In this document: in pieces, positions 38,903 through 56,718 of the stretch
How positions within the stretch are numbered: position 1 is the first letter of the stretch
Layout: each line of letters begins with the position of its first letter
Source of the DNA: a virus
DNA length: 56,718 nucleotides
IMG/VR virus record: IMGVR_UViG_3300050343_000137
Span: 1-56,718 of that record
Direction: 5' to 3' (one strand)
Notes under the pieces: generated by a model
The model's input: the letters and a program-made list of their open reading frames with translations, nothing else
Told to the model about the DNA's origin: nothing
Databases searched by the model: none
Made by a program: the position numbers and the translations under genes

Positions 38903-38906
38903 TATA

Positions 38907-40398: not shown

Positions 40399-40417
40399 AA
40401 AATATACAAGCATGTAA

Positions 40418-40445: not shown

Positions 40446-40466
40446 CTAAGTAAATAAGGAGTATAA

Positions 40467-41842: not shown

Positions 41843-41850
41843 GAGATAAA

Positions 41851-42063
41851 ATGCCAGATTATTGGAGAACAGCCTTAATAAGAGCGGGACGTACATTTGC
41901 ACAAACATTTGTTGCAGTTCTTATGGCTAACCAAGCAGGAATGTTTGAAGCAGATACAGTTATGGCTGCAACCATAGCCGGTGCTTCAGCAGCAGTTTCT
42001 GCAATTCAAAATGCGTTGGAAGACGCACCATTTCCATTTATGTCAAAAATTCCTAAGGGATAA
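41851..42063 (+). CDS. Holin, r1t-like
   Basis: 70 residues. ALIRAGRTFAQTFVAVLMAN and TVMAATIAGASAAVSAIQNAL form two hydrophobic segments; the R-A-x-R-T-x-A-Q-T opening is typical of r1t-type holins found in actinobacterial and lactococcal phages. Forms the lesion that lets the amidase reach the wall. AGGAG at 41841-41845. Confidence 0.65.
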   Translation: MPDYWRTALIRAGRTFAQTFVAVLMANQAGMFEADTVMAATIAGASAAVSAIQNALEDAPFPFMSKIPKG

Positions 42064-42072
42064 TTTTTCGAC

Positions 42073-42078
42073 TATAAT
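42073..42078 (+). promoter_or_regulatory. -10 element (TATAAT) before the secreted FN3 protein
   Basis: TATAAT 10 bases after the holin stop; expected start near 42085-42088, which would place the terminator-like hairpin of 42090-42114 at the very 5' end of the RNA. The -35 is weak, so the call is moderate. Confidence 0.5.
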
Positions 42079-42089
42079 AGATTAAGATG

Positions 42090-42114
42090 GGGACGTTTTA
42101 TACGTCCCTTTCTT
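42090..42114 (+). terminator. Terminator hairpin abutting a start codon
   Basis: GGGACG (42090-42095), loop TTTTATA, CGTCCC (42103-42108), T-run TTTCTT, and then immediately ATG 42115. It terminates the lysis transcript. Because the ATG begins at the last T, and a -10 precedes the hairpin, it may also attenuate expression of the next gene. No Shine-Dalgarno is present. Confidence 0.75.
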
Positions 42115-44481: not shown

Positions 44482-44673
44482 GTGAGTAAAATTATAAATA
44501 AAGTATATACAAAGATAAAAGCAATTATGAAAGAATCTGTATCTCAGATTTTTACATTGCTAGGTTTTTTTATTGCTTGGTTAACACTTACAGGCAGTGC
44601 GAAAGATGTTGTAGGAATAGCTATATTATTTTCTATTACAGTTTGGTTGCTAACAATAAACTGGAGAGATTAA
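44482..44673 (+). CDS. Small membrane protein (possible holin partner)
   Basis: 63 residues from GTG 44482, directly after the previous stop with GAGGAG nearby. Two hydrophobic helices: IFTLLGFFIAWLTLTGSA and VVGIAILFSITVWLLTI, amphipathic basic N-terminus. Lies one base before the next small membrane gene. Holin or antiholin are likely roles. Confidence 0.6.
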   Translation: MSKIINKVYTKIKAIMKESVSQIFTLLGFFIAWLTLTGSAKDVVGIAILFSITVWLLTINWRD

Positions 44674-44674
44674 T

Positions 44675-44935
44675 ATGAAATCGTCAATGACAGTATTTCA
44701 AAAATTAAAAATAATCTTAGCAAGAATGATTGCTGTATTTGTAGCAAATGGATTAGCAGTTATCGGGGCAGGTAGTCTTATAGGTGTTGATATAATTAGT
44801 TCAATACTTTTAGCTGGTTCATTAGGAGTAATCAAAGTTGCTGAATCATTAGCAAGAGCTTATATCGACGATGGCAAGATAACTCTAGAAGAAATCAACG
44901 AAAGTTTCGCTATAATGGAGAAGAAGAAGAAATAA
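44675..44935 (+). CDS. Holin-like membrane protein
   Basis: 86 residues: ARMIAVFVANGLAVIGAGSLIGV and ISSILLAGSLGVIKVAESLARAYI are two hydrophobic helices; then a basic/acidic tail EEINESFAIMEKKKK. A strong candidate for a second r1t-like holin by layout. Next gene begins three bases downstream. Confidence 0.6.
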   Translation: MKSSMTVFQKLKIILARMIAVFVANGLAVIGAGSLIGVDIISSILLAGSLGVIKVAESLARAYIDDGKITLEEINESFAIMEKKKK

Positions 44936-44937
44936 TT

Positions 44938-45027
44938 ATGTGTAAAATTTACAAAAAATCTGACCAGAGCTATATTCAAATTTGCAACTGCAAATATGGC
45001 TCAGAAAACTGTGAGGTAAAAAACTAA
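44938..45027 (+). CDS. 29-residue Cys-rich mini-protein
   Basis: MCKIYKKSDQSYIQICNCK and YGSENCEVKN; four cysteines in 29 residues. Stop overlaps the next ATG (TAATG), three bases after the preceding stop; translational coupling supports it as real. Pattern recalls 12781-12903. Confidence 0.5.
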   Translation: MCKIYKKSDQSYIQICNCKYGSENCEVKN

Positions 45028-45227
45028 TGTCTGAACATAAGCATATAAGTAACAACGGTTTAACTCAGAAAGAAATGTTATTAATGGTTTTAGAAGGTCA
45101 AGAAAAAATTAACGAACGCATTGACTCGCTTCACGAAAAGGTCAATACAAAAATGTCAAGACAGGAATTTACAGGACTATTTGTGGGCTTTGCAGCCTTA
45201 GCAGCAGTAGTCAATCAATTAATGTAG
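45027..45227 (+). CDS. Small protein, coiled coil plus C-terminal membrane segment
   Basis: 66 residues: EMLLMVLEGQEKINERIDSL and HEKVNTKMSRQE form a coiled coil, then FTGLFVGFAALAAVVNQLM is a transmembrane helix. It resembles DUF-type small phage membrane proteins associated with holins. Confidence 0.6.
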   Translation: MSEHKHISNNGLTQKEMLLMVLEGQEKINERIDSLHEKVNTKMSRQEFTGLFVGFAALAAVVNQLM

Positions 45228-45250
45228 TCAACAACCCAAGGGGGTTTTAA

Positions 45251-45388
45251 ATGACCGAAATCATATTAGTACTTACAGTCTCACTCACATCTATTGGTGT
45301 ATTAGTTTGGCTAGCAGTGCTTTCTACAAGATTAATAAAAGAATTTATACCAATAGTACAGGAGATTTTAGATGAGAAAAAGAATTAA
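45251..45388 (+). CDS. 45-residue single-pass membrane protein
   Basis: MTEIILVLTVSLTSIGVLVW followed by LAVLSTRLIKEFIPIVQE: one long hydrophobic helix, then an amphipathic tail. Eleven bases upstream is AAGGGGG. It overlaps the next ORF by 17 bases. Spanin or holin accessory is possible. Confidence 0.45.
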   Translation: MTEIILVLTVSLTSIGVLVWLAVLSTRLIKEFIPIVQEILDEKKN

Positions 45389-45512
45389 TAGATGTGATGA
45401 GTGTAAAGAACCACTCAAGAACATACAAAATAATCAGTGGATGTGCGACCAAAGTCCTAAAAAGTGTAATGCTTCAGCAAAAGTTATATTTATACACGAA
45501 GAAGAAGAATGA
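45372..45512 (+). CDS. 46-residue zinc-finger-like mini-protein
   Basis: MRKRINRCDECKEPLKNIQ, then WMCDQSPKKCNASAK: CxxC plus C-x6-C. Starts inside the previous gene (ribosome site GGAGAT at 45361-45366) and ends in an ATGA overlap. One of several similar proteins in this window. Confidence 0.5.
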   Translation: MRKRINRCDECKEPLKNIQNNQWMCDQSPKKCNASAKVIFIHEEEE

Positions 45513-45781
45513 AAGATAAATGGCGTTTTGCTGCGTTAATAGTTTATCTAGTTATATGTGTGTACGACTTTATGCTAGTTCCTATATATTACGGAATAGC
45601 AAGAATGGATTTAGATTTAGCTGACTATATGCAGTATCTAACTCTTATAGAAGACCCATTAGTACAAATGGAATATCTAAAGAAACTTGTATCACAACAC
45701 GAACCATTCACTCTTCAAGGTGGCGGATTGTTTCACTTATCATTCGGTGCAATACTTACAGCTAGTACACTTAAGACATGA
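45509..45781 (+). CDS. Membrane protein, probable 3-TM holin family
   Basis: 90 residues: WRFAALIVYLVICVYDFML and VPIYYGIARM form the first pair, then a helical loop (DYMQYLTLIEDPLV) and FTLQGGGLFHLSFGAILTAS. The GGGLFHLxFGAIL pattern recurs in marine phage holin-like proteins. ATGA overlaps on both sides. Confidence 0.6.
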   Translation: MKDKWRFAALIVYLVICVYDFMLVPIYYGIARMDLDLADYMQYLTLIEDPLVQMEYLKKLVSQHEPFTLQGGGLFHLSFGAILTASTLKT

Positions 45782-45867
45782 GCGAATGGGTTATTATTCT
45801 ATTTTGTACTGGGTTACTGTATGTAGCCTCATATATTGGTTCTGGAAAGAAATTCAAAAATAAATGA
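45778..45867 (+). CDS. 29-residue single-pass membrane mini-protein
   Basis: MSEWVIILFCTGLLYVASYI followed by GSGKKFKNK: one transmembrane helix and a basic tail. ATGA overlaps on both ends. Antiholin- or spanin-like size, function unknown. Confidence 0.45.
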   Translation: MSEWVIILFCTGLLYVASYIGSGKKFKNK

Positions 45868-46037
45868 ATGTGCCATCTCAAGCAAATTTTCATATAAAAT
45901 ACCCATCAACACAACCAGACTGTCCCATTTGTAATACCAGTCTATTAGAGATACATGCAGGTTTGTATTGTGATAACTCAAAATGTATGGGGTATAAGCA
46001 AAAAGTAGTAGCTTGTTGTGAAGGTGGTGCTTGTTAA
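45864..46037 (+). CDS. 57-residue zinc ribbon mini-protein
   Basis: DCPICNTSLLEIHAGLYCDN, SKCMGYKQKVVACCEGGAC: a double-knuckle zinc ribbon (CPIC/CDNSKC) plus a CC-x3-C tail. Overlaps the preceding ORF by ATGA. The HAGLYCxxxxCMGY core matches a small phage zinc ribbon type I have seen repeatedly; function unknown. Confidence 0.6.
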   Translation: MNVPSQANFHIKYPSTQPDCPICNTSLLEIHAGLYCDNSKCMGYKQKVVACCEGGAC

Positions 46038-46039
46038 TT

Positions 46040-46071
46040 AGAAAAGCCTCCTACACAGTGGAGACTTTTCT
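46040..46071. terminator. Hairpin, possibly bidirectional terminator
   Basis: AGAAAAGCCTCC (46040-46051) and GGAGACTTTTCT (46060-46071) with one mismatch, loop of eight bases. The A-rich and T-rich arms give a U-rich 3' arm on both strands. Ends the mini-protein operon. Confidence 0.6.
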
Positions 46072-46214
46072 GTAAGTATTTGCTTTGAATAAGCTTCTAA
46101 TCATGAATTAGCATCTTACTATGGCATATACCGTAGACGAATATATAAAAATATAATACTCTTGTTCTATATATATGTAGGAAAATAAAAAACTTTTCCC
46201 CTATTTAGTATATT

Positions 46215-46382
46215 ATGAACAAAAAATGTATTTTATGTGGCAAAAGACCACAATTAAATGAAAGATATAATTACTGTAACTCTTGTTTACATATTGAGTG
46301 CCGTATATGTGGAAAATGTTCTTTAGGAATGTTGGAGATATTAGATGGTAGAATATGTAATATATGTATTACTACAAAATAG
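46215..46382 (+). CDS. 55-residue tandem zinc ribbon protein
   Basis: CILCGKRPQ, YCNSCLHIEC, CRICGKCSLG and CNICITTK: ten cysteines in CxxC-type pairs, able to bind two to three zinc ions. Overlaps the nuclease start by 19 bases, so probably expressed with it. Unknown role. Confidence 0.6.
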   Translation: MNKKCILCGKRPQLNERYNYCNSCLHIECRICGKCSLGMLEILDGRICNICITTK

Positions 46383-46705
46383 AAATTTTAAGAGTAGTAG
46401 ATGGGGACACAGTAGATGTTAGAATTGATTTGGGTTTTAATGTGTGGCACAAATGTCGTGTTCGACTCATGGGCATTAATGCTCCAGAATCACGAACAAG
46501 AGATTTGGAAGAGAAAGCAAGAGGGCTGGCTGCAAAAGATTGGCTTATAAAAGAGTTAGAAAGTTCAGAAGTCCAAATGCAATCACACGGAACTGGAAAA
46601 TACGGTAGAGTTCTAGGAACTCTAATAATAGATGATGTAGATATCAACCAAAAGATGGTAGATAAAGGACACGCTATTTGGTATGACGGCGGTTCACGCT
46701 CATAA
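46364..46705 (+). CDS. Staphylococcal-type nuclease (SNase family)
   Basis: 113 residues. RVVDGDTVDVRIDLGF (metal-binding Asp), CRVRLMGINAPESR (Arg, then metal-coordinating/general-base Glu), and HGTGKYGRVLGTLII (second Arg) are the SNase signature; QKMVDKGHAIWYDG is the closing segment. No signal peptide, so intracellular. A Ca2+-dependent sugar-nonspecific nuclease that could degrade host nucleic acid or tidy packaging intermediates. Confidence 0.85.
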   Translation: MYYYKIEILRVVDGDTVDVRIDLGFNVWHKCRVRLMGINAPESRTRDLEEKARGLAAKDWLIKELESSEVQMQSHGTGKYGRVLGTLIIDDVDINQKMVDKGHAIWYDGGSRS

Positions 46706-46709
46706 AACT

Positions 46710-46950
46710 GGGGTGGTCTCACATTGAGAAGCTGCTTCAGTCTTTCGACACTCTAATCTTTTCGATTAGAAAGCTGATTATTTTTGCCCACTCATACCGT
46801 TATGAACGGGAATACCTACCGAATTTAATTAGCAGGTTTACTATCATCCCTTGCTCCCTAGCGATAGTCATGCTAGTTCACTTACTTTTTTAAAGCACAG
46901 TAGAGCTACTGAAAATAATCTTGGCTATCTCCGAAAGGAGGGACCACCCC
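46710..46950 (+). ncRNA. Candidate large structured RNA (241 nt)
   Basis: Not coding. P1: GGGGTGGTC (46710-46718) pairs with GACCACCCC (46942-46950). P2: GATTATTTT (46776-46784) pairs with AAAATAATC (46912-46920), extended across a two-base bulge by AGCT (46772-46775) with GGCT (46923-46926). Nested hairpins: CTAATC/GATTAG (46753-46769), CCGTT/AACGG (46797-46809), ACTATC/GATAGT (46840-46868), CTAGC/GCTAG (46858-46876), CAGTAG/CTACTG (46898-46911) and CTCC-GAAA-GGAG (46929-46940). Plus strand is favoured: U-G pairs at the ends of P1 and P2 and a GNRA loop. ACTATC/GATAGT and CTAGC/GCTAG interleave. No family recognised; the adjoining genes are convergent. Confidence 0.6.
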
Positions 46951-46956
46951 TAATAA

Positions 46957-47358
46957 TTAAAAGAGGTTATCTTCTTTCTCTTGAAGCATAATTTGTGCCA
47001 TAGTTATCCTTCTACTACCAAGTTTAGCAATTTCTTTTACCATCTCTATAAAAGCATTAAGCTGACCTGTTCTAAATTTATATAAAGGGTGCTTAGTTTT
47101 ACCTATATCTATACCACTTTCAAACTTCTTACAATACATTTCTATTTCTTTTGCTCTTGCATAGTATGCAACTGCTATTTCGTATAGAGAAGACACACCA
47201 GCTTCTACTGGTGATTTTGTTCTACCAAATAAAGTGTCTGTATATCCTTCTATTTCGTTTTCAAAGTTACGAATAGTTTCCATTGCATTGCCATGATGCT
47301 CAATGTCTTCAAACTTAACATGTAGCAAAGAGTTTTTTTTAGCTAAATTTTCACCCAT
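46957..47358 (-). CDS. Unknown helical protein (weak resemblance to small terminase, P27-like)
   Basis: 133 residues, helical: SLYEIAVAYYARAKEIEMYC, HPLYKFRTGQLNAFIEMVKE, IAKLGSRRITMAQIML. The order 'helix - HP - helix - LGxxR' is reminiscent of P27-type small terminase subunits, but there are no diagnostic residues. ATG 47358 lies in the end of the preceding zinc-finger gene (overlap 8 bases). The last gene of a five-gene minus-strand operon. Confidence 0.5.
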   Translation of the reverse strand: MGENLAKKNSLLHVKFEDIEHHGNAMETIRNFENEIEGYTDTLFGRTKSPVEAGVSSLYEIAVAYYARAKEIEMYCKKFESGIDIGKTKHPLYKFRTGQLNAFIEMVKEIAKLGSRRITMAQIMLQEKEDNLF

Positions 47359-47500
47359 TTACTTCTGCTTCTTTCATCATATGAGCATTTCCACAATCGT
47401 AACATATTTTATGAAGCTCATTTAAAACTCCAAGCCATATTCCGTCTGTCCCGGAATGTACTATATTTTCTTTAGTACCGCAACGTCCGCATTCATTCAT
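47351..47500 (-). CDS. 49-residue zinc-finger mini-protein
   Basis: MNECGRCGTKENIVHSGTDG and HKICYDCGNAHMMK: two CxxC knuckles 29 residues apart, a classic short zinc ribbon. Ribosome site AGGAGA six bases upstream (47507-47512 on this strand). Overlaps neighbours on both sides by 8 bases. Confidence 0.6.
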   Translation of the reverse strand: MNECGRCGTKENIVHSGTDGIWLGVLNELHKICYDCGNAHMMKEAEVNG

Positions 47501-47639
47501 TGTTCTCCTTTTCTTGTAGCAAATCTATAAAATAATTTATATATTGCCTTTTATTTTCTTTCGGTAACCAACACAAAATTATTGCAGCAGCATATTCTAA
47601 ATTTCTTTTAGCTTTTTTTTCTGCCGCTTTAGAGTTCAT
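47493..47639 (-). CDS. 48-residue hypothetical protein
   Basis: MNSKAAEKKAKRNLEYAAAI, then ILCWLPKENKRQYINYF and IDLLQEKENNE: a basic N-terminus and two helices. Overlaps the upstream gene's end (11 bases) and the downstream gene's start, so coupled. Unknown. Confidence 0.5.
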   Translation of the reverse strand: MNSKAAEKKAKRNLEYAAAIILCWLPKENKRQYINYFIDLLQEKENNE

Positions 47640-47868
47640 CTTGTTTCCAATCATTATAAAAAGTTTCTAATCTAGTAAGCATAAGTTTATGACTTTGTAT
47701 ATTGTACTCAATCATCTTAAGCGTATTTCTATATATTTCTTTTAAGTCTTTACTTTCTGGTTCACCCATAAAAGCTAACTCTTTTTTAAACTCTTTAGCT
47801 TCAAGAATTGTATTTTGACAATCTTCTAAAGCATCAAGTACATCGAATAGTGAATCATATTTTTCCAT
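47629..47868 (-). CDS. 79-residue helical protein
   Basis: Start at ATG 47868 chosen because GGAAGGAAA precedes it; the frame is open further upstream, but that part overlaps the structured leader. MEKYDSLFDVLDALEDCQNT and the rest form long helices (EIYRNTLKMIEYNIQSHKLM). First gene of the short operon behind the RNA at 47882-47994. Unknown function. Confidence 0.55.
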   Translation of the reverse strand: MEKYDSLFDVLDALEDCQNTILEAKEFKKELAFMGEPESKDLKEIYRNTLKMIEYNIQSHKLMLTRLETFYNDWKQDEL

Positions 47869-47881
47869 AATTTCCTTCCGT

Positions 47882-47994
47882 AAAAAATGTAAAGGGTGTT
47901 CAACGATAGGCAAGAACAGCAACCTAATTATAAAAATTAGAGTGGTTACTAAAAACCTAGTATGGAGCTCTCTTCCATCTCTAGTCCCTTTACA
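47882..47994 (-). ncRNA. Candidate structured leader or small RNA
   Basis: On the minus strand TGTAAAGGG (47994-47986) pairs with CCCTTTACA (47896-47888), immediately followed by T6 (47887-47882). Inside are four hairpins: CTAG-AG-ATGGA/TCCAT-A-CTAG, GGTT/AACC, CTAATT/AATTAG and TGTTC/GAACA. This is a multi-branch junction with a U-tail at its 3' end, 19 bases before the helical-protein ATG at 47868. Either a riboswitch-like attenuator or an sRNA. No known class recognised. Confidence 0.5.
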
Positions 47995-48102
47995 AAACTA
48001 ATTTTAGCAGACATTTAACTGTATGCTTCACAAATGGAGTTTGAGACAGGTGTTGCATCAACAAAGGGGCTTGTTACAGCTAGTAGCTTTACTACCATTA
48101 GC

Positions 48103-49668
48103 TTATACATCCACACTGTCTCTACCCTCCAATTCGTAATCTTTAATAACTAAACCGTTTTCTATTTTACCAACAGTCGATGGTTTTCTGTACATACTTT
48201 TAACGTACTTACCTAAAAACAATCCATTACCGTTTATACCATAATGAGCCCAATGACCCCTTCTAGTGTGTTGTGCTAATTCACTGGTTCTAAGCGGTCT
48301 TTCTGTACCGTCAGATTCTACAACATAAAGAGATGGCTTAACTTTTAAAGTTTTAATTGTTACAGTAGGTTCATCACTTTCTGTGTTTAAACCCATCTTG
48401 GAACGCTTAATTCTTTTACGCTCTTGCCTAGGTACTGATATATTTTCTCTGACAAAGATACCATCTTTTTCACCATTCAACCATTGTGTGACTCTAAACA
48501 ATCCACCTATGACTGCGTGTGTAATAATTGAGTTAGACAAATAGAAGCGAACAGACTCTGCTTTAGCATTCTGGTGTTGACTTCTAAGCCTTTTAGTAAA
48601 CTCATCATCTGAATCTTTTTGACTGTCTAAAATACCTCCATACAAATCAAGAACACCGTGTGCGTGAGTAGAGCTAGTACTTTGTTGGTTCAAATAATTA
48701 TAAGCGTCACTGTACATACTTCTTTCTTTATCAGACATTCTGTTGTCATGAAACGAAGTAAAAGTATAAGGTCTTCCATAATTGTCTAAGTTGATTTGAA
48801 TATTATTAATCCAAGTAATTTTACCATTAGCACTACAAGTAGCATCGTCGCAACAAAATCTTCTTCCATATATGTCAACAAATTGAGTATATTGTGGACG
48901 AACATCTTCTGCTATATATGGCATAGATGGCATTTCTAAAACCCAATCTCTGTAATTTTTATGTATAGAAATTTCACCTTTTTCTACAAACTTTCCCATA
49001 TTCGGGTGGTCTAAAAATTCTCTAGGTGTTAAGTGTGCTAAGTCTTCATTAAGAGCAAGAGGGTCTTTAACAACCCATTCTCTATGTTGTACATTCTCTA
49101 TTGGTTTGTCTAAGTCAAACTGACGGACAACAACAGATATGTCTTTAAATCTAGGTATATCAACTTCTGAAAGTGATTCATCATCAATAAAATAATTAAC
49201 TAGCTCATCTATTTTGTTGTTTGAATCTAGCATATAAAAGTTATCTTCATATGGCTGTGTCAAAAATACATTGTCTTCATTAAATAAATTAGACAAACTT
49301 TCTAAAGCATCAAAACATAAATCATTTTTTGTATTGTTATCTTTTACTTTAGTAATTAATGAGTCAATCTCCATTTCAAATACTTCACTAGCATTAAACA
49401 TATATGGAACTTTTCCAATTTCTACATTTTTATTTACTTCTTCTGATATGTAATGAATAGACCTTTCAACATTAGTACAAATGTTAGAGACTTTTTGTAA
49501 AAACTCTTTTGGGTTTACATTTTCTTCCTCAAGAGTTTTTAAGAACTCTGGGTTTGATTTCATTTCCTGTAAGTAATCTACTAGATTGTCGTGTATTGCA
49601 GGAAAGTAAAGATTAGGGAACGAAGTGTTAGCTAAGTCTCTGCCTAAAATTTCTGATAGTTGTAACAT
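48103..49668 (-). CDS. Large early protein of unknown function
   Basis: 521 residues from ATG 49668, chosen because AAGGAGA lies eight bases upstream; the ATG at 49698 belongs to the promoter's -10 (TATAATGG). Contains CCDDATCSANG, THAHGVLDLYGG, and a C-terminal TRRGHWAHYGINGNG... KYVKSMYRKPSTVG motif similar in shape to the RGHWR...RG endings seen in several phage early proteins. No enzymatic motifs recognised. Expressed from a strong promoter, so important early in infection. Confidence 0.6.
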   Translation of the reverse strand: MLQLSEILGRDLANTSFPNLYFPAIHDNLVDYLQEMKSNPEFLKTLEEENVNPKEFLQKVSNICTNVERSIHYISEEVNKNVEIGKVPYMFNASEVFEMEIDSLITKVKDNNTKNDLCFDALESLSNLFNEDNVFLTQPYEDNFYMLDSNNKIDELVNYFIDDESLSEVDIPRFKDISVVVRQFDLDKPIENVQHREWVVKDPLALNEDLAHLTPREFLDHPNMGKFVEKGEISIHKNYRDWVLEMPSMPYIAEDVRPQYTQFVDIYGRRFCCDDATCSANGKITWINNIQINLDNYGRPYTFTSFHDNRMSDKERSMYSDAYNYLNQQSTSSTHAHGVLDLYGGILDSQKDSDDEFTKRLRSQHQNAKAESVRFYLSNSIITHAVIGGLFRVTQWLNGEKDGIFVRENISVPRQERKRIKRSKMGLNTESDEPTVTIKTLKVKPSLYVVESDGTERPLRTSELAQHTRRGHWAHYGINGNGLFLGKYVKSMYRKPSTVGKIENGLVIKDYELEGRDSVDV

Positions 49669-49696
49669 AATATTCTCCTTGTTTTTCTGTACTACC

Positions 49697-49725
49697 ATTA
49701 TATCATATAATTAAAAAAAAAGCAA
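49697..49725 (-). promoter_or_regulatory. Sigma-70 promoter for the large early protein
   Basis: Minus strand: TTGCTT (49725-49720), 17-bp spacer ending TATGA, TATAAT (49702-49697), i.e. extended TGA-TATAAT. Same spacing and same TATGA box as the three promoters at 53.9, 55.1 and 56.1 kb, but without their operator. Confidence 0.75.
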
Positions 49726-49793
49726 GTATTAAAAAAACTGTCGTACCCTGTTGGTAGGATGAAATCTGTAATAGTAAAAATAGGAGAGACTAT

Positions 49794-50177
49794 ATGTATA
49801 TAAATAAATTAGAAAGAAGAGAAGCCAAGAGAAATTTTAATGGCTTACCAGATATAGATGGAGAGTTTGACACAGTTCAAATAGAAATAGAAGTACCACT
49901 TCATTCCATACAAGTTAAAGACTTTTATGAGTTTATGAAGAAGTATCCTAAGACAGAAGCTAATCCATACTCTAATGATGATATGCCTACACATATGGGC
50001 GACTGTATTTCTGACTACCTAAAAACACTGGTAGACGAAGGAAGCTTAAAGTCGTTCTTTGGTGGTGACTTTATGTCAACAGATTATTTAAGTTTGCATC
50101 CTTGGACTTTTCATTTAAAAGAATCAAAATTTAATTTTGAAGCTAAGTACAAAGTAGAGAGCGAAGCACCTTTCTAA
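49794..50177 (+). CDS. Hypothetical protein, 127 residues
   Basis: MYINKLERREAKRNFNGLPD, EVPLHSIQVKDFYEFMKKYP and a C-terminal beta segment WTFHLKESKFNFEAKYKV. Divergent from the large early gene; GGAGAG at 49781-49786. Convergent with GpgS, 5 bases apart. Not recognised. Confidence 0.55.
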   Translation: MYINKLERREAKRNFNGLPDIDGEFDTVQIEIEVPLHSIQVKDFYEFMKKYPKTEANPYSNDDMPTHMGDCISDYLKTLVDEGSLKSFFGGDFMSTDYLSLHPWTFHLKESKFNFEAKYKVESEAPF

Positions 50178-50182
50178 AATAA

Positions 50183-51076
50183 TTAATTAATACTTTGCTT
50201 CGGTGGTCTAACAGATTGCTGAGCAAAGTATTCTTTTCTTCTAACTACTGGGAAGCCATCCCATTCACCTTTTTCCCAAACTCTTAAGTATGTAGATGTT
50301 GGGTAATCTATTCCAGCTTTTTTAACTATGGTGTGCATAATATCAAAAGACATTTTACCCAATGCTTGTATGTCTTGATGCGTATGAACCCTTGTCCCCA
50401 TACAAGTTTGTGCAAATCTTCTATGTCCAAGAGAAGCACCATTGTGTATGTCAATCAAATGTGATACTTCAACACCATAACCAGTAGGATATTCTAAAGC
50501 TTCTAATACCTCTCTTCTCCCTGCATACTCACCAGATAAAGGCTGATAAAACTCTTGTATCTTAGGATAGAACATTGCCAACATAGGACGAGCAACAAGT
50601 TCTGTAACTCTACCCATATTACCTCGGTCATAATATGCTTTTACATAATCAACTTCTGGGTTCATAATTAGTGGTCCAACAAGTCCACGAACAAATCTGT
50701 CATCAAAATTTTTAATGTCTCCATCAAGGTAAACTACAATATCTGAGTTAGTTACAAATAATCCTTTCCAAAGATTTTCTCCTTTACCTCCTATAACCTT
50801 TCCTAAGTCTGGTCTAATGTCTTCGGCTAAATAAAAATCTACACCCATAGACGAAACAATTTCTTGTGTGTCATCTGTTGAGCCACTGTCTACTACTACA
50901 AGCTCATCAACCCATTCGGGTATAGCTTTTAAGATTTTAGAAATGTTTTCACCCTCGTTTAAAGTTGGTATAATGACAGCTATAGAGTTATTTTTTTTGT
51001 GACTTAGAATGTATCTTTCGCTAAAGAAACTTTCGTCATATGTGAATGGTTGATACCAAGTGTCAATTCTTTCCAT
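50183..51076 (-). CDS. GT2/GT81-type glycosyltransferase, glucosyl-3-phosphoglycerate synthase-like
   Basis: About 297 residues from ATG 51076 (a TTG at 51091 is less likely). IAVIIPTLNEGENISKIL and ELVVVDSGSTDD are the GT-A nucleotide fold; IVVYLDGDIKNF carries the DxD metal site. The segment YQPLSGEYAGRREVL, then TGYGVEVSHLID and GTRVHTHQ is characteristic of GpgS, which makes glucosyl-3-phosphoglycerate for osmolytes or methylglucose polysaccharides. A stand-alone phage copy may redirect host sugar-phosphate metabolism or use another acceptor. Confidence 0.72.
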   Translation of the reverse strand: MERIDTWYQPFTYDESFFSERYILSHKKNNSIAVIIPTLNEGENISKILKAIPEWVDELVVVDSGSTDDTQEIVSSMGVDFYLAEDIRPDLGKVIGGKGENLWKGLFVTNSDIVVYLDGDIKNFDDRFVRGLVGPLIMNPEVDYVKAYYDRGNMGRVTELVARPMLAMFYPKIQEFYQPLSGEYAGRREVLEALEYPTGYGVEVSHLIDIHNGASLGHRRFAQTCMGTRVHTHQDIQALGKMSFDIMHTIVKKAGIDYPTSTYLRVWEKGEWDGFPVVRRKEYFAQQSVRPPKQSIN

Positions 51077-51106
51077 AAGAAATAATAACACAATTAAATA
51101 GTTCTA

Positions 51107-51145
51107 TAGGTATAGTTAATAGGTTTAGTTATTAGGTATAGTTCC
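51107..51145. repeat. Three tandem 13-bp AT-rich repeats
   Basis: TAGGTATAGTTAA (51107-51119), TAGGTTTAGTTAT (51120-51132), TAGGTATAGTTCC (51133-51145), head-to-tail without spacers. Directly followed by the 22-bp array. AT-rich 13-mers next to iterons are a hallmark of DNA-unwinding elements in replication origins. Confidence 0.7.
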
Positions 51146-51255
51146 AGTTCATCTGACGTACTACTGTAGTTCATTTAACGAACCCCGGCAGTTCGCCTCT
51201 CGAACCCCTGTAGTTCATCTGACGATATACGGTGTTCATCTCTCATACCACTACA
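51146..51255. repeat. Tandem 22-bp repeats (four clear units and a degenerate fifth)
   Basis: Units at 51146-51167, 51168-51189, 51190-51211, 51212-51233 and a degenerate one from 51234. Each begins AGTTC (unit 5 GTTC) and has a CG dinucleotide 12-13 bases in. Units 2 and 3 contain the dyad GTTC-N7-GAAC (GTTCATTTAACGAAC, GTTCGCCTCTCGAAC). A period of 22 bp is two helical turns, so a protein would bind on one face of the DNA. Iteron-like. Confidence 0.65.
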
Positions 51256-51292
51256 TATAGTGGGTAGTAAAAAACATACCACATATGGTATG
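51248..51292. promoter_or_regulatory. Two palindromes with a shared CATA centre
   Basis: CCACTACATATAGTGG (51248-51263) and CATACCACATATGGTATG (51275-51292): arms CCACTA/TAGTGG and CATACCA/TGGTATG around CATA. Related sequences occur at 53603-53620 and 54886-54913. Likely operators for one regulator, directly following the iteron array. Confidence 0.5.
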
Positions 51293-51486
51293 CACTAAAA
51301 ATCAAGTATGATATAATAAAGTATAAGGATATATAAGTGTTTCCTTCACTAATCTCCTTTTTCTGTCGGTATATGTACCCTTTAGCTGTCAAAAGCTTTA
51401 GGGTCCCCAAAAAAACTCGCAGCCGGAACGGTATAAACCCCATATCTAACCCCTTATACCAGAGGTCAAAAATTTTTATTTTTCAC
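51293..51486. other. Non-coding stretch between operators and the small-RNA promoter
   Basis: No credible gene. Contains TATAAT (51312-51317), and an imperfect stem pairing ACCCT-TTAGCT with AGCTTT-AGGGT (about 51377-51404). The rest shows nothing I can name. The minus-strand frame of 66 codons across it has no ribosome site and overlaps the operators. Confidence 0.5.
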
Positions 51487-51515
51487 TTGCTTCATTCCCC
51501 ACTCTGTGGTATACT
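51487..51515 (+). promoter_or_regulatory. Sigma-70 promoter of a small RNA
   Basis: TTGCTT (51487-51492), 17-bp spacer ending TGG, TATACT (51510-51515). Predicted start near 51522. The nearest plus-strand gene begins 700 bases further on beyond a terminator, so it appears to drive a short transcript. Confidence 0.7.
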
Positions 51516-51521
51516 TATATA

Positions 51522-51632
51522 GAGGCATAAAAGCCGGTAAAGGAAGCACATTCGTTACTGAAAGCTTACTTACTAGCATAGATGGGGTAAAACATATTTC
51601 CTATAAGGGTTGGGTGTCGCTCGCCCTTTTTT
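51522..51632 (+). ncRNA. Candidate small RNA, about 110 nt
   Basis: Lies between the promoter and a terminator (GGGTG 51612-51616, loop TCGCT, CGCCC 51622-51626, then T6 at 51627-51632). Only ATG-TAA-type micro frames are present. It contains ATAAAAGCCGGTAAAGGAAGC, with GGAAG-like sites, but no matching coding sequence. The terminator stem is short (5 bp), the weakest part of the call. Confidence 0.5.
51612..51632 (+). terminator. Terminator of the small RNA
   Basis: Five-base-pair G+C-rich stem with a TCGCT loop, and six T. The flanking TTGGG/CGCCC context does not extend it. Confidence 0.5.
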
Positions 51633-51661
51633 AATCTAAACTAAAACTCTAGATTTATTCT

Positions 51662-51673
51662 TGTCATATGACA
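51662..51673. promoter_or_regulatory. Perfect 12-bp palindrome TGTCATATGACA
   Basis: Perfect dyad about 50 bases downstream of the TerS-like gene's stop (on its 3' side) and 30 bases after the small-RNA terminator. Could be a repressor site; nothing else in the window repeats it exactly. Confidence 0.35.
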
Positions 51674-51723
51674 TTACACTGAAATAGCATTAGGCGGCGC
51701 GGAAACACAAAGATACGTTCTTT

Positions 51724-52143
51724 TTACTTATCCCCAGAATATTTAATCTGAATAGTAACAGGTTCATCATCAGCTCCACCCATCTCAATCTTCTGTGGTT
51801 TAGACCATTTATCGAAGCTTCTCTCTAGCCACCAAGCAGCAGCTTGCCATTGTCCTCTACTAGCTGCAGTCTTAATGCTATTAAGGAAAATACCTTCTGC
51901 TTCTGCTCTTGCTTTCTCCATAGAGTTCAGAAAGTCACTATGTAAAGTCTGTAAACCTGCATCTCTATCATCTCTGCCTTTAGACAGCCAACTGTACAGA
52001 GTACCCTTGCTGATGCCAGCCATCCTAGCTGCGTCTTCAACGAAATAGCCCATTCTAAGCCAGTTTTGTACATTGATGATAAGTTCTGCACTTAGCTTAC
52101 TTGGTCGACCTAATTTATTATCTTTTTTCTTTTCAATACTCAT
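51724..52143 (-). CDS. HTH protein, small-terminase-like
   Basis: 139 residues: LGRPSKLSAELIINVQNWLRMG, FVEDAARMAGISKGTLYSWL (helix-turn-helix), FLNSMEKARAEAEGIFLNSI, GQWQAAAWWLERSFDKWSKP. This HTH-helix-'WxAAAWxLER' layout is typical of phage small terminase subunits (TerS), which recognise DNA for packaging. It lies far from the head genes and on the other strand, so a transcription-factor reading cannot be excluded. Divergent from the ORF at 52222. Confidence 0.65.
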   Translation of the reverse strand: MSIEKKKDNKLGRPSKLSAELIINVQNWLRMGYFVEDAARMAGISKGTLYSWLSKGRDDRDAGLQTLHSDFLNSMEKARAEAEGIFLNSIKTAASRGQWQAAAWWLERSFDKWSKPQKIEMGGADDEPVTIQIKYSGDK

Positions 52144-52207
52144 TACATATATATTCTAGCATGGTATTTATTGACTCGATTGAAATATTAGATTACGTAA
52201 GGGTATG

Positions 52208-52216
52208 TGTTATAAT
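52208..52216 (+). promoter_or_regulatory. Extended -10 promoter
   Basis: TGT-TATAAT (52208-52216), six bases before ATG 52222; so the transcript is nearly leaderless and the start codon has no ribosome site. -35 not clear. Confidence 0.5.
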
Positions 52217-52221
52217 ACTGT

Positions 52222-52492
52222 ATGGACTACATTCAAAAGATAGAAGAGCTCAAAAGTAAGCTCGAACAACTAGCCATCATGCGTGGTGACGATGCTCTTT
52301 TAGATTATGTACAAGACATAGATATGACACGTATAGACCCTGTAGTCGCTGTGTTGTACATAGGTACACTCACTTTCATACTTTGAAAACCTAGAACTCT
52401 TCAGCGAAGAGGAGAGAATAGAATTAGGTCTATGTAGAGAATGGGTACATCCAAGTGCTTGGAGAACAATCAAAATGGAGTGGGCAGAATAA
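52222..52492 (+). CDS. 89-residue protein of unknown function (one frameshift)
   Basis: MDYIQKIEELKSKLEQLAIM (coiled coil), DDALLDYVQDIDMTRIDPVV, LYIGTLTF, then a break near 52375-52385 (one base extra) and YFENLELFSEEERIELGLCR with WVHPSAWRTIKMEWAE. Both halves are acidic and helical; the sum is multiple of three plus one. Unknown. Confidence 0.5.
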
Positions 52493-52621
52493 TTTAAAAA
52501 AATTTTTTCGCCTTTACTATACGCTTACGTTTTCAAACCTACACAGATTAGTACCCCCACCATATACACTATACATTCGAGAAATTAGGATTTATGCGCT
52601 CTGACGTCCGGACCCTATTAT

Positions 52622-52683
52622 ATCGCTTGGTTAGCGATTTCACATGAACCCCCAGCTTGTGAAATTTTTCACAATCTAGGGGT
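52622..52683. terminator. Two hairpins between convergent genes
   Basis: ATCGCT-TGGTT-AGCGAT (52622-52638) and a longer one: ACCCC (52648-52652), internal loop, TTGTGAA (52657-52663), loop, TTCACAA (52668-52674), internal loop, GGGGT (52679-52683). They sit between the end of the plus-strand ORF and the end of the minus-strand gene (52698), so they probably terminate from both sides. The TTGTGAA arms recur at 55002-55027. Confidence 0.6.
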
Positions 52684-52697
52684 GCTTGTGTATTCTG

Positions 52698-53036
52698 TTA
52701 TCCTTCCCCTTGAATCACCATTTCTTTATATGTTGCCTTACCGATTCTTTTAGCTTCGGCATATTTACCCCCTAAGCCTTCATTAGAAGGCTCTGTGATA
52801 GGGGTGTAAACGATTGTAGGGTATTTAGAACCTGCATTTTGTAGAGTCTTTGTATACCCTTCACGGTTACCACTGTTTAAGAAATCTTTAACAGTATATT
52901 TTCCAGCATTATTAGGAATGCTTCTAGCACCTAATGGCATCGGTGTTGTACCTTTTTGAGTTGGTATAACGTAACCCTTAAACGCGTTATTGTCGTCGAA
53001 TGTTTTTCCTAATTTACTCATTGTATTTTTATTCAT
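52698..53036 (-). CDS. Hypothetical protein
   Basis: 112 residues from ATG 53036 (MNKNTMSKLGKTFDDNNAF), chosen because a TATAGT element lies just upstream of the other ATG at 53117 and would leave no leader, while AAAAAGGAAAAAATAAA precedes 53036. IPTQKGTTPMPLGARSIPNN, GKYTVKDFLNSGNREGY, SKYPTIVYTPITEPSNEGLG. Basic, Gly/Pro-rich, not recognised. Confidence 0.5.
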   Translation of the reverse strand: MNKNTMSKLGKTFDDNNAFKGYVIPTQKGTTPMPLGARSIPNNAGKYTVKDFLNSGNREGYTKTLQNAGSKYPTIVYTPITEPSNEGLGGKYAEAKRIGKATYKEMVIQGEG

Positions 53037-53389
53037 TTTATTTTTTCCTTTTTGAGAATCTAGAGTTTTACTTGAGATTTTCAAGTGGTCTAAATTCTCG
53101 GTTTTTCTTAATGTCATACTATAAATTTACCATGAACCATAGATTTAGACTGTAGTATTTCACAAAAAAATTTATATTTCCATAAACATATATAGAGGTA
53201 AAAAAGTCAATTGCTATAAGGGTTTTTCATGGTCACCCCTATACCCCCCTATATTTTTTTTTAGATTTCCAAAAATAATTCGTCAATTTTACCTCGAAAA
53301 GTGCTCAAGACTTTTTATTTTAGGTGATAGCTTAGAATCTTTTCTAACCTAAATAAATACCGTGTAACTGGTTACACTCTAAACATATT

Positions 53390-53446
53390 TCAGATTCAGA
53401 ATTTCAGATTCAGAAATTCAGATTCAGATTCAGATTCAGATTCAAA
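53390..53446. repeat. ATTCAG hexanucleotide repeats
   Basis: CAGATTCAGAATTTCAGATT followed by five further ATTCAG-like units with small irregularities (ATTTCAG, AAATTCAG). Possibly a slippage-prone array in the control region; the surrounding sequence is not coding. Confidence 0.65.
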
Positions 53447-53449
53447 ATT

Positions 53450-53530
53450 TTAATTTCATATATAGGATTTTGATTTCCATATATGTAGGATTTCAATTTC
53501 ATATATATAGGATTCTATTTTCATATATTG
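53450..53530. repeat. Degenerate 22-24-bp repeats TTTCATATATAGGAT
   Basis: Four units: TTTCATATATAGGATTTT, TTTCCATATATGTAGGATTT, TTTCATATATATAGGATTCT and TTTTCATATATTGG. A fifth related unit lies at about 53176-53195 (TTTCCATAAACATATATAG). The phase and TATATAG core suggest protein-binding sites or a melting region. Confidence 0.5.
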
Positions 53531-53729
53531 GTAATATTTACCATTTTAAAATCTAAGTTATTTGACGTAAAAAATCTATATAAATTTACTTAGATTTCAT
53601 ATACACTACATATGGTATAGAACATATGTTCGATTTTGCTCCAGTTACTAATTCTGGTCTGGACTTTTTTTTATTATGAGCTCCATTAGTGAGCCCTAAA
53701 TACTCCGGAGGATTTACCATGGAACTGGG

Positions 53730-53891
53730 TTATTTATATAATCCCCAGTTAACCATGTCCCTCACGAATGAGGCGGCACTCTCGAAGTGCTCGTTCCACC
53801 CTGCGGCTTCCTCGCAAGCGTAGAGCGAACAGTATTCACCGCAACCTTCGTCCATTGCGTCTAATACCATTGTGAATTCTTTAATTTTCAT
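53730..53891 (-). CDS. 53-residue protein
   Basis: MKIKEFTMVLDAMDEGCGEY, then CSLYACEEAAGWNEHFES and FVRDMVNWGLYK. Ribosome site AAGGAGA at 53896-53902 on this strand and the strong TTGCAT promoter directly upstream. Three Cys, acidic. The stop codon lies in a hairpin (AACTGGG/CCCAGTT). Function unknown; an early takeover protein would fit the promoter. Confidence 0.6.
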   Translation of the reverse strand: MKIKEFTMVLDAMDEGCGEYCSLYACEEAAGWNEHFESAASFVRDMVNWGLYK

Positions 53892-53908
53892 TGTGTCTCC
53901 TTGTTTGT

Positions 53909-53948
53909 CTTATACTATAAGTATATCATATAATCTAAATTAATGCAA
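53909..53948 (-). promoter_or_regulatory. Promoter-operator unit 1
   Basis: TTGCAT (53948-53943), 17-bp spacer ending in TATGA, TATACT (53925-53920), overlapped downstream by the dyad CTTATA-N-TATAAG (53921-53909). Drives the 53-residue gene at 53891. Two further copies: 55089-55128 and 56112-56151. Confidence 0.8.
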
Positions 53949-53965
53949 ATCAAATAGAAGATTTT

Positions 53966-54265
53966 TTAAACTTTTTTTATGTTCTGGAAATCTTCTAAAG
54001 TGTTGGTAAAAGTCCATTCAGATTTTACAATTTTAGCCATAATAGAATCTTCACCTAATTGCCACGCTATAAAATTAATATAATCTTTAATGGCTTCTGC
54101 TTGTTCTGCTGTGTCTGTTACCGTTGTAAACTCAATAGACTCTTCAGCAATACCTAACCATGAACCGTTACATTCTTTAGTCGTCCAACCGCTAACCATC
54201 TTATTAATACCATCGTTAGCATCTTTAATAACTGCTGGTACTGTTCTTAATGTTAATTCGTACAT
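53966..54265 (-). CDS. 99-residue hypothetical protein
   Basis: Start at ATG 54265 chosen for GGAAGGA seven bases upstream (MYELTLRTVPAVIKDAND). MVSGWTTKECNGSWLGIAEE, FTTVTDTAEQAEAIKDYINF. Looks like a small alpha-beta domain. Follows the 54-residue gene on the same transcript. Not recognised. Confidence 0.55.
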   Translation of the reverse strand: MYELTLRTVPAVIKDANDGINKMVSGWTTKECNGSWLGIAEESIEFTTVTDTAEQAEAIKDYINFIAWQLGEDSIMAKIVKSEWTFTNTLEDFQNIKKV

Positions 54266-54317
54266 TTTTTGTCCTTCCGTTTTTTTGGTGGGGGTAAATA
54301 CCCCCCCCGTTATTTTG

Positions 54318-54482
54318 TTACGCGTTGGTAACAAATGTAATCATAATGAACGTAAGAGACAGCATGTCCAAAATAAATTGGCTGTAGTCTCTTCTTAGTC
54401 CAAGTCCATAACCCTTGGTATCTGTAAAATACCAGTTGCCACGGTCAGTCTTTTTGTATCCTGTAATTGTTTGTTTTTTCAT
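54318..54482 (-). CDS. 54-residue protein with C-terminal membrane segment
   Basis: MKKQTITGYKKTDRGNWYFT, a basic middle (YGLGLRRDYSQ), then FILDMLSLTFIMITFVTNA, a transmembrane helix. The consensus promoter ends 10 bases upstream. There is no clear ribosome site, so it may be translated nearly leaderless. A possible small early membrane protein. Confidence 0.5.
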   Translation of the reverse strand: MKKQTITGYKKTDRGNWYFTDTKGYGLGLRRDYSQFILDMLSLTFIMITFVTNA

Positions 54483-54491
54483 TATGTATAT

Positions 54492-54520
54492 ACTATATCA
54501 CTAAATGTTATTTATGTCAA
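54492..54520 (-). promoter_or_regulatory. Consensus sigma-70 promoter
   Basis: TTGACA (54520-54515), 17-bp spacer ending TGA, TATAGT (54497-54492). Perfect -35 and extended -10; the strongest promoter in the window by consensus. Lacks the CTTATA dyad of the TTGCAT promoters, so probably independently regulated. Confidence 0.75.
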
Positions 54521-54618
54521 ATCCTAAAAGCCTGTAAACACTGGGGTTATAAAATTATTTTATTTTTTTTTCTAAAATCAGTAAATTTTTTTAAAACTTG
54601 TCACTAGTAACTTATGTA

Positions 54619-54852
54619 ATGAAAAATACTATAAAAATCTTAGTCACCGATATAAAGGAACTAAGTAGCCTACACAAGCAAGCGTTGACTATCTTTCACG
54701 ATAATTATGATAGATACGATTTTATTATGACAGCTCTTTCATTTGTATTAATTGCAAGTGGATTTGTTTTAATAGGTCTTAACTTTCAAATTACAGGAAG
54801 GCTCGTTCTCGGTCTTGCTCTATACCTATTCTTTTGGTGGTCTTGTTACTAG
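54619..54852 (+). CDS. Putative small membrane protein
   Basis: 77 residues from ATG 54619: MKNTIKILVTDIKELSSLHK, a helical region, IMTALSFVLIASGFVLIGL and LVLGLALYLFFWWSC as two membrane helices. On the plus strand among minus-strand genes, without a clear ribosome site or promoter. Moderate doubt. Confidence 0.4.
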   Translation: MKNTIKILVTDIKELSSLHKQALTIFHDNYDRYDFIMTALSFVLIASGFVLIGLNFQITGRLVLGLALYLFFWWSCY

Positions 54853-54879
54853 ACCATCAAAGGAAATAGCAAACCCAAC

Positions 54880-55083
54880 ATATTGTGGTACTACATATAG
54901 TGGTACTACATATGGGATGCCCGTCTAGGTCTGGAGACCCAATGGAATTTTCTTGATTCCCTCCGGAGAAACATTACAAACTCGTATATGCTCCGGAGGA
55001 TTTTCACAAGGTTTCAAGATTGTGAAAGTCGGGTACTTCAGAGCCTCTGTGCGAGGGCTATTTCCCAGTCTGTCTTCACAACC
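54880..55083 (-). ncRNA. Candidate structured RNA from promoter unit 2
   Basis: Expected transcript from the promoter at 55089-55128 has no credible ORF but strong hairpins: AGC-CTC/GAG-GCT (about 55042-55059), TTTCACAA (55009-55002 read on minus) with TTGTGAAA, a 9-10-bp stem formed by two CTCCGGAG sites (54991-55000 and 54959-54968), and GGTCT-CC-AGACC (54928-54939). Then repeated TACTACATAT sites. No clear terminator. Alternatively a long leader for the genes at 54482. Confidence 0.4.
54886..54913. repeat. Direct repeat TGGTACTACATAT (15-bp period)
   Basis: Two copies at 54886-54898 and 54901-54913, related to CCACTACATATAGTGG at 51248. Together they look like operator half-sites of the same regulator. 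Confidence 0.5.
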
Positions 55084-55088
55084 TTAAC

Positions 55089-55128
55089 CTTATATTATAA
55101 GTATATCATACCTTTACAAATAATGCAA
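55089..55128 (-). promoter_or_regulatory. Promoter-operator unit 2
   Basis: TTGCAT (55128-55123), 17-bp spacer ending TATGA, TATACT (55105-55100), dyad CTTATA-N-TATAAG (55101-55089). Same as units 1 and 3. It lies between the ArdC-like gene and the RNA region. Confidence 0.75.
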
Positions 55129-55158
55129 ATCATTTATAAAGTTTTTTTTGAAGCTGGG

Positions 55159-56092
55159 TTATATTTCAAACCCAGTTTCAATGTCGTCTAAGATTCTATT
55201 TGCAGTCTTTTGAATTCTGCTTAGAGATTCTTTAACTAATTTCTTAGTGTCTTCTTTGCCCCAGCTTGCGATATAACCGAAGCTGTAAAGCGTCTTCGTC
55301 GCTATGGATGCCTAGCGCTTCAGCCACTATGAAGGCGACGCCTTCGGCTTCTGTCTCATACCTAGCACGGTTTTGGCGATAGTCTTTAATATCTGCGTGC
55401 ATAATCATATGAGCCACTTCGTGAATTAAAGTTTTAACTTTATATCCGAAGTCTGCGTTTTCATCTATAACAATCTGCTTCTCTTCGTGTGAGCAATAAC
55501 CGTCTGCGCCTCGTGCGTTACCCATCACAACTTTGAAGCCATGAACGTCTGCTAATCTAATGAAGTCTGCAAATACATTAAAGTCTGCGTTCGCCACTAC
55601 ATCTTTGACCATTGAAAATGTTGTTGTTAATTCATCACCTTCTGTTTGATTAATTCCAAACACTGGCACCGACATGAACCCCATCATTTTTTTAGCTATT
55701 CTATGTGAAGAGTTAACCCCACAAAAATTTGTTCTAGTGAATTTATTCCATATAGTCTTACGACCAAAAGAAGTACATCCTTTTTGTATGCATACAAAGC
55801 CCATTCTAGGAGCTAATATCCACATAGCCTTTTCACCAGCTTTAATTGTTCTGCCGACTTTTTCCCACTGCTTAGCACCACGTACAGAAGATGGAAGATT
55901 GTCCCAGCCTCTTAATATAGATTCAAGCCAAATCAACTGGGTATTATTCCAGCTGTATGCCTTTTCACCTTTAACAAAGTGTAAGTAGCTTTTCCAGTCG
56001 TTAGATTCAATCAATGCATCAATAGAGTTTTCTAGAGATGCCGATATATTCTCAACAATTTCTTGATTGCTAAGTTTATTTTTAGTAGTCAT
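55159..56092 (-). CDS. ArdC-like antirestriction protein with zincin domain (one frameshift)
   Basis: The open frame ends at 55244 with unlike residues. Restoring one base near 55275 continues as FGYIASWGKEDTKKLVKESL and RIQKTANRIL, a normal ArdC ending, stop 55159-55161. N-terminal domain SWNNTQLIWLESILRGW, AKQWEKVGRTIKAGEKAMWI (ArdC, ssDNA binding), C-terminal domain with HEVAHM at 224-229 and YETEAEGVAFIVA (zincin metallopeptidase). ArdC proteins protect incoming DNA from restriction. Early promoter supports early expression. Confidence 0.7.
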
Positions 56093-56111
56093 TTTTAACC
56101 TTTCGTGTTGT

Positions 56112-56151
56112 CTTATAATATAAGTATATCATATATAGCAAATTAATGCAA
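56112..56151 (-). promoter_or_regulatory. Promoter-operator unit 3
   Basis: TTGCAT (56151-56146), 17-bp spacer ending TATGA, TATACT (56128-56123), dyad CTTATA-N-TATAAG (56124-56112). 20 bases before the ArdC-like start at 56092. Confidence 0.8.
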
Positions 56152-56173
56152 ATCAGATATAGGATTTTTTTAC

Positions 56174-56199
56174 AAAAAAAAGCTGGTACTAAGACCAGC
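56174..56199 (-). terminator. Rho-independent terminator
   Basis: On the minus strand GCTGGT (56199-56194), loop CTTAGT, ACCAGC (56187-56182), then T8 (56181-56174). It ends the gene at 56209-56457 and isolates promoter unit 3. Confidence 0.85.
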
Positions 56200-56208
56200 C
56201 TTTTAATT

Positions 56209-56457
56209 TTAATCTTCAGAATCTAAAAGGTCTTTTAACCTTTCTTGTTCTGCATAATTTTGGTCGGCTAATTCTTCCATTGTTATGATGGAATAGCCGT
56301 CAAAATAATTATCTTCACCGAAAAATTCTGCAATTTCTTCGTCAAAGTCTGACATTATGCAACCTTGTTCAGTTTCGTACACTTCTTTGAAGCGTAATTC
56401 TGACATATCAGTATTCACTGTATACCTACTTTCTATTAGTTTTTTTCTCTTATTCAT
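56209..56457 (-). CDS. 82-residue acidic hypothetical protein
   Basis: MNKRKKLIESRYTVNTDMSE, then ETEQGCIMSDFDEEIAEFFG and ELADQNYAEQERLKDLLDSED. The first ten residues are basic, the remainder strongly acidic. No family recognised. Followed by a clear terminator. The acidic part might mimic DNA, which is common in anti-restriction proteins, but this is a guess. Confidence 0.6.
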   Translation of the reverse strand: MNKRKKLIESRYTVNTDMSELRFKEVYETEQGCIMSDFDEEIAEFFGEDNYFDGYSIITMEELADQNYAEQERLKDLLDSED

Positions 56458-56477
56458 TTAACTAATAGAGACGAATC

Positions 56478-56636
56478 TTATCGCCTTTTAATTACTTGCT
56501 TAGGTAGTACAAATATAATCATGTACATAAAGCCAAGCCACAAGGGTAGCAAAGCTAAATCTAAGCCGTTGAAAATTCCATCACCAGTCAAATCAAAACT
56601 GTTAATGAGATAGTCATTGCAATATTGTTCTTTCAA
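56478..56636 (-). CDS. Small membrane protein with a dockerin-like loop
   Basis: TTG 56636 is preferred: GGAGGAG lies six bases upstream; the ATG at 56669 lies inside the preceding gene. NSFDLTGDGIFNGLDLALLP shows a D-x-T-G-D-G-x6-D calcium-loop pattern as in dockerins/EF-hands, then WLGFMYMIIFVLPKQVIKRR is a membrane helix with a basic tail. 52-53 residues. Confidence 0.5.
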   Translation of the reverse strand: MKEQYCNDYLINSFDLTGDGIFNGLDLALLPLWLGFMYMIIFVLPKQVIKRR

Positions 56637-56637
56637 A

Positions 56638-56718
56638 CTAACTCCTCCATTTTGAAATAGTATCTTCATTTAATAACATTGTTAAGGCACTTAGATAACC
56701 TTCGTCATAGTAAATATC
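56638..56718 (-). CDS. C-terminal end of a further minus-strand gene (partial)
   Basis: In the frame ending at TAG 56640-56638 the sequence reads DIYYDEGYLSALTMLLNEDT and ISKWRS. It continues beyond the window. The short segment looks like real protein (helical, acidic), but cannot be named. Confidence 0.4.
   Translation of the reverse strand, partial: DIYYDEGYLSALTMLLNEDTISKWRS

Follow-up and report, generated by a model that had tools for sequence, protein, structure and literature searches.

A putative iteron-type replication origin at the inner edges of a long inverted repeat in uncultured tailed phages

Long inverted repeats that divide a genome into invertible segments are known from a few well-described systems. 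The chloroplast genome has a large and a small single-copy segment separated by two near-identical inverted repeats (IRs), and it exists as flip isomers. In herpes simplex virus, two unique segments are bounded by inverted repeats; the segments invert and the origins lie in the repeats. Among phages, P1 (segment C) and Mu (segment G) invert segments of ~3 kb with a site-specific recombinase and short sites. Replication origins with tandem initiator-binding units form a separate body of knowledge. Plasmid iteron origins (RepA_N and others) combine units at 22-bp spacing, AT-rich 13-mers and a winged-helix initiator. The lambda origin consists of tandem initiator-binding units, imperfect inverted repeats of 19 bp, beside an AT-rich tract (PMC7466680).

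The phage locus described here resembles both kinds of system and differs from each. Like ori-lambda, it has tandem units, dyadic in some of the arrays, beside an AT-rich tract, and an O-like initiator is encoded as well. However, the array lies outside the initiator gene, so it is not a lambda-type origin in the narrow sense. In addition, its AT-rich part is made of 13-bp direct repeats, and two inverted copies are found per genome at the IR edge. It appears to share with plasmid iteron origins the 22-bp spacing, the AT-rich 13-mers and, by a weak fold match, the winged-helix initiator, but it is phage-borne and its units change wholesale between close lineages. The genome around it has the chloroplast-like parts listed above, in a phage, with an IR of ~12 kb and, presumably, a circular map. 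IR-bounded invertible unique segments, with putative origins in the repeats, are also what likens it to herpes simplex virus, an unrelated virus; terminal repeats are not among the features shown here. As in P1 and Mu, phage DNA appears to invert between inverted repeats, but here the segments are 55-61 kb and ~12 kb and the repeats are long. Iteron origins and quadripartite genomes are each known, whereas their joint occurrence in phages appears to be new. In the open-access literature that we searched, which was not exhaustive, we came across no tailed phage described as having long inverted repeats or genome isomers.

The stretch of DNA analysed (the window), an IMG/VR virus contig 56,718 bp long, has no terminal repeats. 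Its caudoviral late region includes genes for capsid (128-754), tail, exonuclease and endolysin. The array lies close to its right end, between a glycosyltransferase (GT) gene and terS (Table 1). A preliminary description of the sequence had reported three AT-rich 13-mers joined to five 22-bp units, followed by two palindromes. TRF, applied independently of that reading, returned a 13-bp repeat at 51106-51143 (2.9 copies, 88% match) and a 22-bp repeat at 51146-51241 (4.4 copies, 68% match). When the whole window was shuffled 60 times under a second-order Markov model, even the best shuffle scored below the observed sequence at both periods: 39 matches against 47 observed at period 22 over 74 bp, and 21 against 23 at period 13 over 30 bp. 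Together with conservation in relatives, these results confirm that the repeat array exists, and both palindromes could be placed. The finer anatomy needed correction. The three 13-mers are present, but a fourth TAGTT core lies at 51099-51103, at a 14-bp step. Four of the five units keep an exact 22-bp step, while the fifth is degenerate and follows at 21 bp. The dyad GTTC-N7-GAAC was located in units 2 and 3 as claimed (51169-51183 and 51191-51205), although the window's own units are only weakly dyadic by shuffle test (p 0.29). The 13-mer block is 72% AT, and the units are 53% AT. Rfam gave no match to the array. The palindrome nearer to terS has a run of T after it on the minus strand and looks like a terminator of the terS transcript.

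Table 1. Positions of the array and its surroundings in the window
Feature	Position	Strand	Remarks
Segment A (large single-copy, late genes)	1..51082	+	window begins within capsid gene
GT2 glycosyltransferase	50183..51076	-	last gene of A-right end; abuts array
IR part inside window	51083..56718	-	5.6 kb of one IR, assigned by homology; runs on beyond window end
AT-rich block, four TAGTT/AACTA cores, AACTATACCTAAT type	51099..51143	-	spacing 13, 13, 14 bp; faces segment A
Four tandem 22-bp units starting AGTTC	51146..51233		unit starts 51146, 51168, 51190, 51212
Degenerate fifth unit GTTCATCTCTCATAC	51234..51248		GTTC at 51234; 21-bp step
Palindrome CCACTA-CATA-TAGTGG	51248..51263		
Palindrome CATACCACATATGGTATG	51275..51292		T5 next to it on minus strand; terminator-like for terS transcript
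terS, small terminase subunit	51724..52143	-	within IR

Relatives were gathered by a terS search followed by DNA-pattern searches, and separately by terL. The array is present on dozens of related contigs, and every terS-retrieved relative that reaches far enough has it 0.3-0.6 kb downstream of terS (~470 bp in the window). Absence from close relatives, named in the preliminary description as a point against an origin, was thus not what we found. Given this conservation among relatives, the array is beyond chance as a sequence feature. Its two parts evolve differently. The 13-mers (AACTATACCTAAT) are almost invariant across the group, whereas the units, 22-24 bp long in relatives, are uniform inside one phage and wholly different between lineages. 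Where the window has GTTC-N7-GAAC, the unit motif is GTTCATATATGAAC in L010-L013, GTAGTTCATTAAATAGACTAC in L008, ACCGAAAAATCGGT in L038, CACCTAGGGGTG in L036, GGGGGGGTACCCCCCC in L032 and ACGACAGTTCTGTCGT in L063. Unit dyads stood above shuffles in 6 of the 13 arrays tested, the window array not being among the six. Palindromes of a similar kind occupy the same place beside the array in all lineages. In relatives, the gene adjoining the array on its right (~240-254 aa) had no family match. The carriers form one group of phages, uncultured and probably marine. A DNA search of annotated phages returned no relative, a TerS and TerL protein search of the same phages returned distant relatives only, and a scan of GTDB genomes with terL found no close relative.

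What the preliminary description overlooked is that the array sits in a long inverted repeat and is present in two copies per genome. In a 71.8-kb contig (L007), a 55-kb segment A lies between two copies of the array in inverted orientation, which share at least 186 bp at 99.5% identity. Another contig, L174 (61 kb), begins just beyond one array, and its other end falls within the GT gene, the gene next to the array in the window. Over 17,567 bp that span part of segment C, the IR and the array, contigs L012 and L013, which come from two metagenomes, match at 99.93% identity. Past this shared stretch, with the same C end, L012 enters A-left and L013 enters A-right. At contig level, a single species therefore contains A in either orientation with respect to the IR. 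The arrangement in the window is also seen independently in L010 and L013. All A ends that we saw are followed by the array and terS, or by a contig stop in or near the array.

The opposite side of the map comes from contigs that contain segment C. One of 23,382 bp (L300/L304) reads 5,709 bp of IR, then C, then the inverted 5,709 bp of IR, with one mismatch. A contig of 12,161 bp (L299, 1-12161) consists of segment C, and its two ends are exact inverted copies of each other over 123 nt. The long contigs G009, G011 and G006 open with 99, 81 and 87 nt, respectively, which recur in inverted form at an internal site 11-14 kb away and are likewise inverted ends of C, and the orientation of C relative to the IR is inverted between G003 and G006. 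Where measured, A is 55-61 kb, the IR ~11.5-12.5 kb and C ~11-14 kb. The genome map is very probably A - IR - C - IR′ with flip isomers, as assembled at contig level from short-read metagenome contigs that end inside the IRs. The genome would be circular, and on this contig evidence the array occurs twice in it, the copies facing each other across A. The contigs with inverted ends (L299 and L300/L304) represent a single segment C bounded by the IR, and completeness tools based on inverted terminal repeats could call them complete genomes.

Segment C of the relatives, which lies outside the window contig, encodes a lambda-O/DnaD-like initiator, an Erf-like annealing protein and a single-stranded DNA-binding protein (SSB), along with two ParB-like proteins and a PAPS reductase. 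The modelled N-terminus of the initiator is a winged helix-turn-helix (HTH), weakly like the plasmid Rep-DNA complex 5kbj (E 0.016), in a low-confidence model (pLDDT 62, pTM 0.38). Between lineages, the units change in step with this protein. G009 and G011 have near-identical initiator recognition helices and a common CCCTAGGGG unit core, while in G006 and G003 both the helices and the units differ. In contrast, the TerS HTH is nearly identical between L041 and L038, yet their units are unrelated, and the ParB-like proteins of G006 and G003 are 75-80% identical, yet the units differ. Across these four lineages, unit sequence appears to follow the initiator and not TerS or the ParB-like proteins.

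These comparisons bear on the origin-like layout claimed in the preliminary description. The array has the features of an iteron origin, namely tandem units at about two helical turns, dyadic in some of the arrays, an adjacent block of AT-rich direct repeats and an encoded initiator, and the units diverge with that initiator. A repeat scan of C, the scanned parts of the IR and the window found no other iteron-type array. The origin reading is not supported by GC skew, which had been suggested as a check; its sign is unchanged at the array and goes with gene strand. Nor does the array lie inside the initiator gene, which is ~15-20 kb away. We put the chance at about even that the array is an iteron-type replication origin at the IR inner edge, in two inverted copies, one at each edge of A.

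If so, the dyad units of 22/24 bp would serve as binding sites for the C-encoded initiator and the conserved AT-rich 13-mers as the melting region, and replication forks would enter both A and the IR. The array-side palindrome may keep terS transcription out of the array. The phage annealing protein and SSB, together with host recombination, would prevent divergence of the IR copies and invert the single-copy segments. The broader proposal is that the uncultured tailed phages of this widespread group have a flip-flopping quadripartite genome like that of chloroplasts or herpes simplex virus, with a putative origin copy at each edge of the late segment, and that origin-primed replication plus a phage annealing recombinase maintain and flip the repeats. 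For this whole, the probabilities for and against seem to us evenly matched. If the four-part map holds, long identical IRs would be a feature that tailed phages share with chloroplasts and herpesviruses. It would also make testable why such repeats arise, since an origin-like array is at the IR edge, how terminase packages a flipping genome, and what makes short-read assemblies of these phages break at one place every time. A further consequence would be that virus-database contigs with inverted ends may represent single segments and not whole genomes.

The same dyad units could serve transcription instead, with a dimeric regulator bound to them governing promoters directed out of the IR and into A at either end. 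Palindromes adjoin the array, unit specificity varies as it does in repressor-operator pairs, and in some relatives a promoter-like TTGACA..TATGGT was seen by eye after the 13-mers. In the window, however, the GT start codon lies just ~25 bp from the 13-mers, and the interval yielded no promoter-like site. Operator control also has no need for an AT-rich 13-mer block conserved across lineages. We regard it as unlikely to be the array's role.

The array could also be a pac or cos packaging start that is recognised by TerS and at which virion DNA begins. Its constant place downstream of terS suggests this, and the best TerS and TerL matches include Halorubrum and Haloferax tailed viruses, with TerL also matching Thermus phages P23-45 and P74-26. 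The TerS structure matched that of Sf6 TerS only weakly (E 0.43). The position of contig ends also suggested packaging. Among 36 array contigs, 15 start no more than 110 nt from the 13-mers, where 0.37 would be expected; none has its other end near the array, and terL-based retrieval repeats this clustering. We initially read the clustered ends as a packaging terminus. However, the first 123, 99, 77, 77, 103, 127 and 127 nt of array-starting contigs match the opposite A end exactly, and 7 of 10 tested prefix lengths equal usual assembler k values (77, 99, 103, 123, 127; chance 1.6e-6). The contig starts are therefore forks in the assembly graph, where the array leads into either end of A, and not proven DNA ends. 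Given these lengths and the contigs with two array copies, that reading of the clustered ends was dropped. Many contigs break inside the array because it is the inner edge of a long IR. The proximity of terS likewise arises because terS and array both belong to the IR, which counts against packaging, as does the complete change of units between L041 and L038 while the TerS HTH barely changes. A packaging start thus seems distinctly unlikely, and it is possible that the conserved 13-mers are TerS sites.

Alternatively, the array could act mainly in recombination, as a flip site for A or a setter of the IR edge. The inner boundary of the IR does lie just beyond the 13-mers; the distance is ~10-20 bp for L007 and for the window paired with L167, and ~100 bp for L012 paired with L013 and L147 with L137. 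This offset differs between lineages, though; no recombinase is tied to the array, and 11-12 kb of identity suffices for a homologous flip. We consider a boundary element of this kind highly unlikely. The window itself joins an IR that is 92% identical to L002 (51083-53062) to a capsid region (1-755) that is ~65% identical to an L002-like contig, L169, and the window contig may be a mosaic, with exchange at the array, or chimeric. That the inverted-repeat picture as a whole is an artefact of assembly or amplification, made of chimeras, is scarcely credible even with data that are all short-read metagenome contigs and a window of this composition, since the same-base junctions recur in many independent metagenomes and several lineages and, where one contig holds both IR copies, a single base or indel is all that distinguishes them. 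A putative origin in each IR copy remains our preferred reading of the array.

Several smaller features were recorded alongside the array. In the gap between terS and the array (51300-51723 in the window, and in relatives), a conserved hairpin, CCCTAAAGC..GCTTTAGGG, is followed by a Shine-Dalgarno-like ACCGACAGAAAGGAGG. Often a second hairpin comes next, or else a very short reading frame that is not conserved; Rfam had no match for the gap. L033 (1-9230) is 99-99.9% identical to L032 apart from a missing stretch of ~398 bp, almost exactly terS, and has the array. Near-threshold matches of 81-83 nt to both ends of tmRNA (RF00023), with the middle missing, occur at L011:300-380, L012:4392-4473, L002:4114-4196 and L003:1641-1721; ARAGORN called no tRNA or tmRNA at these sites. 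Elsewhere in the IR of the window, ACATATAGTGGTACT, a half-site of the array-side palindrome, is repeated 2.4 times in tandem (54878-54913), and two AT-rich tandem repeat blocks, one TTCAGA-based and the other of 20-22 bp (ATTTTAATTTCATATATAGG), abut at 53387-53529. The IR also encodes, at 55244-56092, a protein with ArdC-N and IrrE/M78 metallopeptidase domains, and homologues are found in the IR of L003, L004, L007 and L008.
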